A DNA stretch of 64,000 nucleotides from Comamonas sp. (GTDB lineage Bacteria; Pseudomonadota; Gammaproteobacteria; Burkholderiales; Burkholderiaceae_C). The stretch lies in the NCBI GenBank assembly GCA_028690035.1, contig JAQVCA010000009.1:50986-114985 (forward strand), in the 5' to 3' direction. The translations under genes and the position numbers were made by a program. This document shows positions 53,814 to 60,578 of this stretch, piece by piece. A model generated the notes under the pieces. The model was not told where the DNA came from and did no database searches. It saw nothing but the letters and a program-made list of their open reading frames with translations. Within the stretch, counting starts at the first letter, position 1; the number at the start of each line of letters is the position of its first letter.

Positions 53814-55655
53814 ATGCAACAAGCAACATCGTCATCGCGCAAACGGATGAAAGTCGGCACGGCCATGGGGCTGGGCTTTGCCCTGGTCATTGTGCTGGGG
53901 GCTGTGATGGCCCTGGTGGCCTGGGTGCAGTTCTCCCGCGCCAGCGCCGAGGCCACCGAGCTGGTGGAAGACCGCATGGTCAAGGTGATGCGCGCGAACC
54001 AGATTATCGACAACCTTAACAGCCAGGCGAATGCCGTGCGCAATATCGTGCTGTCTTTGGACACGGCCACCATGCAGGCCACCATTGATGCCGAAAAGCA
54101 ACGCATGACGGAGCTGCGCGCACAGGGTACCGAGTTGCTCAAGTTGTTGGAGCAGTCGATCCAGTCGCCCGAAGGTAAAGCGGTGTTTCAGCGGGCCAAA
54201 GATGCGGGCTCGGCGTATGTGGGCCAGCTCGACCAGGCCATGGCGTTTGGTTTGGCGGGGGATGGCGAGCAGGCGCGTACGGTGCTTTCCGGCCCAGCCC
54301 GCCAGGGTCGCCAGCAGGCGATTACGGCGATTGAAGGCGTGGTGGCCTTCCAGCAAAAGCTGATGGAAGCGACTGCGCACCGCATTGAAGACATTGCCAG
54401 CAACACCAGCAAGCTCATGCTGTTGATTGCCGTGCTGTCGGGCGTGCTGGGTGCGCTGGTGGCCTTTGTGCTGACCCGCTCCATCACGCGCCAGCTGGGC
54501 GGCGAGCTCGAATACGCCTCGGCGATTGCCCATGAAATTGCCGAGGGCAACCTGGCGGTGCAGGTGCAGTTGCGCCCGGGCGACACCACCAGCCTGCTGG
54601 CCACCATGCAGATGATGCGCGACAGCCTGGGTGAAGTGGTGGCGCGTGTGCGCCAGGGCAGCGAGGCCGTGGCCACCGCCAGCGCGCAGATTGCCCAGGG
54701 CAACCAAGACCTGTCCGGGCGCACCGAAAGCCAGGCCAGCGCACTGGAAGAAACCGCAGCCTCCATGGAGGAGCTGGGTTCCACGGTGCAGCAAAACGCC
54801 GAAAACGCCCGCCAGGCCAACCAGCTGGCACAAAGCGCCTCCACCGTGGCAGTGCAAGGCGGCGAGGTGGTGGCCCAAGTGGTTGAGACCATGGAAGGCA
54901 TCAACACCGCAGGCAAGAAAATTGCCGACATCATCGGCGTCATTGATGGCATTGCCTTCCAGACCAACATCCTGGCGCTGAACGCTGCCGTGGAAGCGGC
55001 GCGCGCGGGTGAACAAGGGCGGGGTTTTGCCGTGGTTGCCAGCGAAGTGCGCGCCCTGGCCGGGCGCAGTGCCGAAGCGGCCAAAGAAATCAAGCTGCTC
55101 ATCACCGACAGCGTGCAGCGCGTCGAGCAAGGTGGTGTTTTGGTACACCAAGCGGGCACGACCATGCAGGACGTGGTCAGCAGCATCCGCCGCGTGACCG
55201 ACATCATGGGCGAGATCAGTGCCGCCAGCACCGAGCAAAGCGCCGGTGTCCGCCAAGTGGGCGAGGCCGTGCAGCAAATGGACCAAGTCACGCAGCAAAA
55301 TGCAGCTTTGGTGGAAGAAATGTCTGCCGCTGCCACCAGCCTGAACCAGCAGGCGCAGGATTTGGTGCAGTCTGTGGCGGTGTTCCAGCTGGCCCAGGGC
55401 ACACAGCAATTTGGCTTTACCGCTACGCACTCCAGCAGCGCCGCCGCTCCAGCCGCCAAAACCCCCACAGCGCCGGCCCCCGCGTTGCGCGGTGCCCCAA
55501 CACCGACACCGGCCCCGGCCCCACGCCCCAAGGCCACCCCAGCGCCCCAGCGCTCCGCGACTGCCGCAGCCAGCGCACCCAAGGCCCTGTCCAGCCCCAG
55601 CACGCCCACAGCCAGTCGTGCTGAACCCTCCAACGACGATTGGGAGAGCTTTTAA
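53814..55655 (+). CDS. Methyl-accepting chemotaxis protein with four-helix-bundle sensor
   Basis: The 613-residue chemoreceptor has membrane helices near residues 15-40 and 202-224, a periplasmic helical sensor of about 160 residues (EDRMVKVMRANQIIDNLNSQ typical of 4HB_MCP), HAMP (VLTRSITRQLGGELEYA) and a signalling domain with tip IDGIAFQTNILALNAAVEAARAGEQG. A Pro/Ala-rich flexible tail of about 80 residues ends in NDDWESF, matching the xWxxF CheR/CheB tethering pentapeptide. The last 395 bases are duplicated at 57278-57672. The leader before ATG is unusually pyrimidine-rich. Confidence 0.95.
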   Translation: MQQATSSSRKRMKVGTAMGLGFALVIVLGAVMALVAWVQFSRASAEATELVEDRMVKVMRANQIIDNLNSQANAVRNIVLSLDTATMQATIDAEKQRMTELRAQGTELLKLLEQSIQSPEGKAVFQRAKDAGSAYVGQLDQAMAFGLAGDGEQARTVLSGPARQGRQQAITAIEGVVAFQQKLMEATAHRIEDIASNTSKLMLLIAVLSGVLGALVAFVLTRSITRQLGGELEYASAIAHEIAEGNLAVQVQLRPGDTTSLLATMQMMRDSLGEVVARVRQGSEAVATASAQIAQGNQDLSGRTESQASALEETAASMEELGSTVQQNAENARQANQLAQSASTVAVQGGEVVAQVVETMEGINTAGKKIADIIGVIDGIAFQTNILALNAAVEAARAGEQGRGFAVVASEVRALAGRSAEAAKEIKLLITDSVQRVEQGGVLVHQAGTTMQDVVSSIRRVTDIMGEISAASTEQSAGVRQVGEAVQQMDQVTQQNAALVEEMSAAATSLNQQAQDLVQSVAVFQLAQGTQQFGFTATHSSSAAAPAAKTPTAPAPALRGAPTPTPAPAPRPKATPAPQRSATAAASAPKALSSPSTPTASRAEPSNDDWESF

Positions 55656-55660
55656 GAGCG

Positions 55661-58489: not shown

Positions 58490-59086
58490 ATGTCGAACCA
58501 CCAAGAGCTCTACAAATTCACTTTCAACCCGTCGTACACCGGCGTGCTCCAGAAATACGAAGTGGAGGGGCGAAAACTGGAACGCGAAAACATCCAGGGC
58601 AGCCACTTTACGTTAGATATTGGCGCCAATGCGCAGGGCCAGCAAGGCGTCTTGACCGTGATCGAAACACGCCAATCCAAGGGCAAGTTCGAGTCCACGC
58701 TTTTCACCGATCTGGATGGCGATGGCCTGTTCACCGAGGCGGTGGAGTTGGAGGTCTTTAGCGCCAGCGTGGCCGCCCGGCATCTGGAAAAGCACCAGTT
58801 CAGTTGGGATGCCCAAGGCCAGATCAGCGCCGATTGGGAGCTGAAAAACGGCCAGTGGAAATGGGAGCACATCGATGCCAACGAAAGCTACACCCAGTTC
58901 ACGCTGAACGGCACGCAGTACGTGCTCAAGACCGAGCAAGAGCACGATGGTCTGGAGTTTGAAGTCTTTCGCAACGACAACGCCGACCAGGTCTGGACGC
59001 GCGTGGCCGAGGGCGAATCCACCATAGGTATCGATTTGGTGGGGTTGCTGCCCTATCTGGAGGCCTCGAACGGCATCATCGGCTGA
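58490..59086 (+). CDS. Hypothetical protein with an EF-hand-like DLDGDG loop (copy 2)
   Basis: Identical to the gene at 56473-57069. This copy overlaps the 3' end of the intact sensor kinase by 11 bases, tail to tail. That is probably the original arrangement. Confidence 0.75.
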   Translation: MSNHQELYKFTFNPSYTGVLQKYEVEGRKLERENIQGSHFTLDIGANAQGQQGVLTVIETRQSKGKFESTLFTDLDGDGLFTEAVELEVFSASVAARHLEKHQFSWDAQGQISADWELKNGQWKWEHIDANESYTQFTLNGTQYVLKTEQEHDGLEFEVFRNDNADQVWTRVAEGESTIGIDLVGLLPYLEASNGIIG

Positions 59087-60578
59087 CCACCAGCCCGCCC
59101 AGCACCAAGCAGGCCTGCAGCCCCTTGAGTGCAGGGCTTTTGCCCAGGGTGAGCGTGCCGCCATAGCTCTGGGCAATTTGCTGGGTGATGCACAACCCCA
59201 GCCCCGAGCCTTCCACGCTCTCATCAAAGCGCAGCCCACGCGCACCGGCGCTGTGCAGCTGCTGCTGGCTCAGGCCCGGGCCATCGTCTTCTATGCAAAT
59301 GTGCAGCATGGGCTGCGCCGTCCCCGGGGCATCGATCGAGACCGTCACGCGCGCGATGGAGGCGGCCCATTTGCCCGCGTTGTCCAGCAGGTTGCCCAGG
59401 GCCTCATCCAGATCGGCACGCTCGCCGCGCCACAGCAGCGCGGTGTCGGTGGGCGCGTTCCAGACCAACTGCCAATCCAGTTCTGCCACATGGTGCAGCT
59501 GGCGCATCATGGCCAGCAGCTGGCCGATGCAGTCCTGCACATCGACCCATTGCCCCGCCTGCGTCCACTCGGTCTGCAGCGCGTCGCTGTGCGTACGCGC
59601 TTGGTAGCGGTCGATCAGGCGCGACATGGCGTGCGTTTGCTTGAGTACCGTGCTGGCGCAGACGGTGGGCTGTGCACTGGCTGCGGCCACCAGCACCGAG
59701 AGCGGTTTTTTCAGCGCATGGTTCAGATCGGCGGCATGGCTGCGCGCGCGCGCCACGATCTGGGTGTTGCGCTGCAGCAGCGCCAGCAGCTCTTGCTTGA
59801 GCGCCTCCAGATCGGCGCCGACAGGCAAGCGCTCCAGTTGCACCTGGGCGGGCGGGGTACTGGCCGTGGGTTGGCGCAACTGCGCCATCGCGGCCACCAG
59901 GCGCCGCAGTGGCTCCAGCCCGATGCGCACCTGCACCACCGTCAGGCACAGCAGCAGCCCCAGCAGCGCCCCGCCGGTGGCCAGCAGCACCCGATCGATG
60001 CTGCGCAGGTTGGCGTACAACGGATCGGCGGGGCCAAACACCTGCAGCTGCCAATCGGTGGCTGCGGTGGTGGCTGCGGTGGTGGCCAGTGGTGCATGGT
60101 GGGCAGCGGTTCCGAGTTGCCCGCGAATCTGGGGTGCGAGCCGGGTCTGAAAGGTAAAGGTTTTGGCCAGCAGTGCTTCCTGTTGTGGCCCGGTGGCTGC
60201 ATACAGCTGGGCGCGGGCAGAAACGGGCCGAGGGCTGGGGCGCAGGTCGGGCTGGTCCCACAGCGAGCGCGAGCGGGCCACGACCCGCCGATCGGCCCGC
60301 AGCACCTGCCAGTACCAGCCGGAGAAAATCGCGCTGAACTCGTCGCTGCTGCTGGGCAGGTCTTGCAGGGTGTCACCGTCCTGTACCTCCAGGCGGGCGG
60401 CAATGCGCAGCGCTTTGTCTTCCAGCATGTGCGCCATGCCCGCATACAGGCTGGCCTGCATTTCATGGCGCAGCCACCAGCCGCCCAATGCCAGCACCAC
60501 CAAGGCCGGCAGCACCGTCAGCAGCACCAGCCGTTCGGCCAGCGACCAGTGGCGCGGGTGCCGGTCAAGGCCGGTCAT
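59076..60578 (-). CDS. Sensor histidine kinase, PhoQ-like
   Basis: Membrane kinase of 500 residues with helix 1 near residues 13-36 and helix 2 near 196-218, a periplasmic sensor of about 160 residues, a HAMP-like linker, an H-box ADLNHALKKPLSVLVAA (His near 285; PhoQ-type LxHxLKxPL rather than the usual HELRTPL), N-box NLLDNAGKWA near 394 and G-boxes EDDGPGLS and GSGLGLCI. ATG 60578 lies within the 3' end of the regulator gene (14-base overlap), indicating coupling. The signal could be divalent cations or envelope stress by analogy only. Confidence 0.92.
   Translation of the reverse strand: MTGLDRHPRHWSLAERLVLLTVLPALVVLALGGWWLRHEMQASLYAGMAHMLEDKALRIAARLEVQDGDTLQDLPSSSDEFSAIFSGWYWQVLRADRRVVARSRSLWDQPDLRPSPRPVSARAQLYAATGPQQEALLAKTFTFQTRLAPQIRGQLGTAAHHAPLATTAATTAATDWQLQVFGPADPLYANLRSIDRVLLATGGALLGLLLCLTVVQVRIGLEPLRRLVAAMAQLRQPTASTPPAQVQLERLPVGADLEALKQELLALLQRNTQIVARARSHAADLNHALKKPLSVLVAAASAQPTVCASTVLKQTHAMSRLIDRYQARTHSDALQTEWTQAGQWVDVQDCIGQLLAMMRQLHHVAELDWQLVWNAPTDTALLWRGERADLDEALGNLLDNAGKWAASIARVTVSIDAPGTAQPMLHICIEDDGPGLSQQQLHSAGARGLRFDESVEGSGLGLCITQQIAQSYGGTLTLGKSPALKGLQACLVLGGLVVSR

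Follow-up and report, generated by a model that had tools for sequence, protein, structure and literature searches.

The locus described here, on contig JAQVCA010000009.1 of Comamonas sp. (assembly GCA_028690035.1), raises the question whether a perfect tandem repeat in a draft genome is carried by the cells or was written by the assembly program. The window, meaning the whole stretch of 64,000 nucleotides analysed (positions 50,986 to 114,985 of the contig, forward strand), contains two copies of a 2,017-bp block lying head to tail, with one end of the block inside a chemoreceptor gene and the other inside a sensor-kinase gene. We favour, with a probability of about 0.62, a genuine duplication that is present in most cells and was made without long homology. 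The first-pass annotation of this DNA had offered either a very recent homology-poor duplication or an assembly error; both are still the right alternatives to weigh, while "exact" need not mean "very recent", as an assembly graph with k=127 merges identical copies.

The repeat and its counterpart in a relative

In a self-comparison of the window, positions 55261–57277 are identical to 57278–59294 at all 2,017 positions, in agreement with the exact copy first claimed, and chance is ruled out as the cause of this identity. At an offset of 2,017 the match runs unbroken over 55261–57279 (2,019 positions), so that the repeated stretch is 55261–59296; the dinucleotide GC is common to both ends of the block and is carried by both parental sites. 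The copies lie side by side and point the same way, and a single novel junction separates them, as in a tandem duplication.

55261–57277, plus strand: block copy 1, identical to 57278–59294
57278–59294, plus strand: block copy 2, identical to 55261–57277
57278–57279, no strand: novel kinase/chemoreceptor junction, GC of both parental sites, with 124 junction-only 127-mers starting at 57154–57277

When the block was compared with the whole genome (22 contigs, 2.92 Mb) 13 matches were found, namely the two full-length copies and 11 short matches (29–148 query bases, 70–93% identity), ten of which map to the chemoreceptor tail within the block. The block was also searched against 60 relatives, with separate counts made over 53 genomes of the genus. 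Only one of the 60, G026, has a long close match, which covers 55691–57279, and 57708 on to 62027, once and without interruption at 96.3% identity. The ydhR gene of the block is found in seven of the 53 genus genomes, as two copies here and as a single copy in the remaining six, and the right part of the block is therefore single-copy in relatives; this comparison covers the right part and not the left end, since no relative was found with the chemoreceptor-tail part in an equivalent place, and no chemoreceptor match is present in 20 kb around the G026 locus. A further gene of the block, for a 198-residue protein, is present in two of the 53, this genome and G026. For the left flank, compared with six genomes, G035 matches best, but other genes come next in G035, and the closest relative of the full-length chemoreceptor among the best 120 of 147 matches shows 87% identity, the window's own protein not being among those listed, so that this listing does not serve to count assemblies of the species. 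Among 80 named loci, searched within their flanks at an E value of 1e-8, 47 have a match to uvrA, 27 to a HAD-like gene, four to a related chemoreceptor and two to a response regulator, and none has ydhR, the 198-residue gene or the kinase.

The genes in and around the block, predicted as open reading frames (ORFs) where no family is given, are as follows.

53814–55655, plus strand: methyl-accepting chemotaxis protein of 613 residues, intact left outer gene (Pfam MCPsignal, 8.8e-54, and 4HB_MCP_1)
55661–55987, minus strand: small gene with a CxxCxxCC cysteine cluster, copy 1 (ORF)
56008–56367, minus strand: putative mono-oxygenase of the ydhR family, copy 1 (ORF, families scanned on copy 2)
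56473–57069, plus strand: 198-residue protein of unknown family, copy 1 (ORF)
57059–57277, minus strand: stranded C-terminal tail of the sensor kinase, 72 residues and a stop (ORF and translation)
57278–57672, plus strand: stranded chemoreceptor tail, in a frame open from 57172 with its first start codon, GTG, at 57286 (128 residues)
57678–58004, minus strand: small gene with the CxxCxxCC cluster, copy 2 (ORF, family scans run on this copy)
58025–58384, minus strand: putative mono-oxygenase of the ydhR family, copy 2 (Pfam PF08803, 8e-41; NCBIfam NF008333 above cut-off)
58490–59086, plus strand: 198-residue protein of unknown family, copy 2 (ORF)
59076–60668, minus strand: sensor histidine kinase of 530 residues, intact right outer gene (Pfam HATPase_c, 5.3e-14)

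The left end of the block corresponds to codon 483 of the chemoreceptor and the right end to codon 459 of the sensor kinase. Both outer genes are whole, the CxxCxxCC gene, the ydhR-family gene and the 198-residue gene each occur twice, and the two gene fragments are left stranded at the join, all of which had been described correctly from the sequence. Copy 2 of the CxxCxxCC protein, which we take to be YkgJ-like from its motif, has neither a Pfam nor an NCBIfam match, and the 128-residue ORF of the stranded chemoreceptor tail has no Pfam match. One protein cluster containing the 198-residue protein holds 107 member sequences, which makes the protein a well-sampled one, and is not separable by species. 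A plasmid origin was considered and rejected, the 20 best of 56 plasmid records covering just 2–10% of the 7.4-kb query; 15 of these 20 are annotated as chemoreceptor at the match and five are unannotated there. A search of the genome for 16S gave 0 matches, but this was dropped as a sign of a metagenome bin, because stretches of N in the sequence may contain rRNA genes.

The join and the possible route of duplication

The junction joins kinase to chemoreceptor sequence with only GC shared, as had been reported, and the absence of long end homology would place it in the short-junction (RecA-independent) class. To speak of 2-bp microhomology, as the first-pass annotation did, is too strong, since roughly 19% of site pairs drawn at random from the window share at least 2 bases; the match is at chance level and not above it, and was rejected as a positive signal. 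An 8-bp word, GTGCAGCA, is located 6–8 bp to the right of both sites, and matches of this quality are seen in 1.0–4.1% of random pairs with right-hand windows of 15–30 bp, in 9.1% at 40 bp, and in 8–38% when both sides are compared (all uncorrected). No unusual secondary structure was detected at the breakpoints in five foldings (z from -0.70 to 0.72), and among the 25 longest of 79 inverted-repeat pairs no arm lies on a breakpoint; one pair of 26 nt, 73% complementary, has one arm located within the block, 24 bp from its right end.

An origin by recombination between mobile elements or long repeats flanking the block is, in our view, extremely improbable. Apart from GTGCAGCA nothing was found in its support, the long end repeats that define it are not present on the sequence, no other exact repeat above 127 bp exists in this contig, and the sites do not fold in any special way. 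An event of this kind at the junction was thus rejected, and the earlier statement that insertion sequence (IS), transposase and long flanking repeat are all missing agrees with the 2 bp shared and with the transposase-family scan, which gave no match among seven proteins, a part of the ORFs here.

In the favoured explanation, a single event would have joined the site in the sensor-kinase gene to the site in the chemoreceptor gene by homology-independent (illegitimate) recombination, for example by end-joining or by template switching from one sister strand to the other. The repeat, its junction, the single-copy state in G026 and the 127-base signature of the assembly are shown by the sequence, whereas the presence of the join in cells, the true number of two copies and the mechanism are inferred. 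A new strand would have left the kinase site and resumed at the chemoreceptor site on the sister strand, or broken ends may have been joined. After a duplication, RecA-dependent exchange between the copies can remove them, expand them or keep them uniform. The lasting effect would be extra dosage of the three small genes together with two dead gene tails, the outer genes being whole; dosage is the likely effect because inspection, made without a promoter scan, revealed no gene under an obviously new promoter. A selective reason for the duplication is not visible.

Bacterial rearrangements and duplications with little homology are documented in PMC3161906 and PMC11111574, and an inversion in E. 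coli with a 2-bp (CG) junction is listed in the former. The amplification junctions of starving E. coli treated there resemble the present join in having few shared bases and no IS, and a template-switch model of tandem amplification is given. They differ in that the joins were sequenced under selection, with microhomology in 40 of 40 amplification junctions and 3–30 bp at embedded inversions, whereas the present case is a single one read from an assembly, and its 2 bp do not exceed chance.

What the assembly can attest

Exact k-length sharing between contig ends is a mark of de Bruijn assembly of the SPAdes type. When exact terminal sharing of at least 20 bases was counted over the 42 unmasked contig ends, 20 of them were found to form 13 pairs with shared termini, nine with exactly 127 bases and four with 125 bases offset by 2; as the pairs form overlapping groups, they are not independent. 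Since these ends share exactly 127 bases, the draft points to a de Bruijn assembly of short reads at k=127. Internal repeats were surveyed in six of the 22 contigs (C5, C12, C14, C18, C19 and C22), which make up 892 kb or 31% of the genome, and 30 exact repeat pairs of at least 60 bases were found. The 2,019-bp repeat is the only one above 127 bases, and the next-longest two are exactly 127 bases, both beside scaffold gaps, so that the apparent assembly k is shorter than the repeat. Six ORFs at contig ends were tested, of which two contain transposase domains and one has a resolvase domain near the end, and repeats of these types seem to have halted assembly there; two transposase ORFs out of six would be expected if the library had short inserts. 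A scaffold gap of 100 N directly precedes the window, and within positions 1–400 its opening 127 bases are found again 273 bases further along, which is probably the trace of a tandem repeat collapsed at this gap.

At k=127 the block forms one graph edge and the join adds 124 extra 127-mers. Arrays of two, three, four and six copies all give one and the same set of 127-mers and of 128-mers, as does a single copy accompanied by a circle of 2,017 bp. Because identical copies are a single edge at this k, the identity of the copies and their number would be partly built in by the assembler and not independent evidence. The 124 junction-only 127-mers are of another kind, as collapse of a repeat should not yield them and reads crossing the join would be needed. 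The assembly thus attests the join, whereas the identity of the copies is no clock and the number two is just mildly supported.

The first rival explanation is an artefact of library and assembly, in which a few chimeric molecules, which could also supply reads carrying the join, would give the junction, and the loop handling of the assembler would then write a second copy that is absent from cells. It agrees with the k=127 short-read signature and with the block being the sole exact repeat above 127 bp in the part surveyed. Against it, the join must have outlasted the removal of low-coverage edges that such assemblers perform, and a random chimera rarely recurs at one base pair. Nor can a mis-joined or collapsed repeat create the join, because the two sites share only 2 bp. 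We consider this explanation unlikely.

Also improbable, to our judgement, is a second rival in which the join is real and the printed structure is not that of the majority, because only a minority of cells is duplicated, because the array is longer than two copies, or because a circle of 2,017 bp accompanies one chromosomal copy. The identity of the k-mer sets speaks for it. In the part of PMC6052550 that concerns SPAdes, all simulated two-copy tandem repeats were written as two, even with a unit longer than the insert, which supports the favoured duplication. True numbers of three to five were written as two in most paired-read settings, which favours the second rival; three to five copies gave none without pairs, or with units of 400–500 bp and 250-bp inserts, which speaks against it. 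A maintained circle is further disfavoured by the block proteins, in which the Pfam and NCBIfam scans found no replication or recombination family. This benchmark is relevant only if the assembler was SPAdes. Its repeats resemble ours in the two copies and in a unit longer than the read and probably than the insert, and differ in being backed by a reference or simulated.

Several observations weigh against a true two-copy duplication. A random chimera would likewise show a match at chance level, and so the shared GC speaks for the artefact. When as many as 3 mismatches were allowed, the junction pattern was found in one of the 53 genus genomes, which is this one, and the 128-residue protein started at the junction has a single member, on this contig, so that neither a second genome nor a second protein record with the junction was found. 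It was probably a rule of the assembler, and not spanning evidence, that put the second copy in place. In the same SPAdes benchmark (PMC6052550, relevant part) a 300-bp unit with 250-bp inserts was written as two where the truth was three to five, and in real data sets some two-copy repeats were left unwritten, which would make the printed copy number of two weak evidence. The Salmonella duplications that arose spontaneously and were mapped from split reads in PMC3411829 are like ours in the direct-orientation junction, but the confirmed joins described there had at least 11 bp, compared with 2 bp here, and candidates with 7 and 9 bp failed; as candidates under 7–9 bp were screened out in that work, 2-bp joins are outside its test. 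For an apparent k=127 draft the warning is that the assembler largely determines how many copies of a 2-kb tandem repeat are written and how identical they are, and that the evidence is carried by the junction k-mers.

A likely exchange with another species around the right part

The right part of the block belongs to a longer segment shared with G026, which is another species of the genus.

57708–62027, no strand: segment 96.3% identical to G026, single-copy and continuous there (alignment)
58242–59289, no strand: near-perfect tract against G026 with a single mismatch (58441); its right edge falls 5 bp short of the duplication endpoint

As background, three other stretches of this genome, which do not give a genome-wide figure, show mostly 74–81% identity to G026 and 83–91% to G035. 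The exceptions are a 1.6-kb piece with 91% identity to G026 and 90% to G012, one piece with 73% to G035, dispersed-repeat pieces below 200 bp at 91–100%, and lower matches to other chemoreceptors; uvrA is 87–91% identical to all three genomes. Because 57708–62027 reaches 96% against this background, it points to a likely recent exchange between the two lineages. Together with 55691–57279 the segment contains a two-component system, the small genes and a gene at 61291–62052 that is presumably PepSY-like. Between the homologue of the last gene and uvrA, G026 (L118:13081–13896) has about 0.76 kb that is not present in this genome.

Judged from its alignment the segment is a mosaic, because the mismatches to G026 cluster: there are two in 58242–59320, 48 in the next 1,080 bases and 22 in 60401–61900. 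The longest clean run is 848 bases (58442–59289), a length reached in none of 20,000 random placements of 147 events (mean 159). The best change point is located after 59289, with 59255–59289 as the range that stays within 2 log units of it; placing the change at the duplication endpoint, 59294–59296, is worse by 4.5 log units. The closeness of the tract edge to this endpoint, assessed post hoc, has a frequency of 0.5% for the edges of the longest tract and 2.5% if 26 bp are allowed, and of 4.3% for any of the nine clean tracts and 20% for any within 26 bp, and is suggestive only.

Duplication and exchange might be linked if the exchanged DNA carried the junction and the tract stopped where homology stopped, an idea that we regard as quite doubtful. 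The edge of the tract falls within the block, 5 bp from its end, the coincidence was noticed post hoc, and both copies are written alike. Homology-facilitated illegitimate recombination, a model of one-sided import described in the relevant part of PMC3240628, would place the edge of an imported tract at an illegitimate join, near to the pattern here; as we interpret it, one copy of donor type and one of recipient type should result, whereas here the two are written as identical. If the link were true, the duplication would be real and older than the exchange, not brand new, because an assembly error cannot set the limit of identity to the genome of another species. For the biology of this Comamonas, the locus probably adds another case of homology-poor tandem duplication affecting small genes, and a recent exchange of DNA between species may be connected with it.

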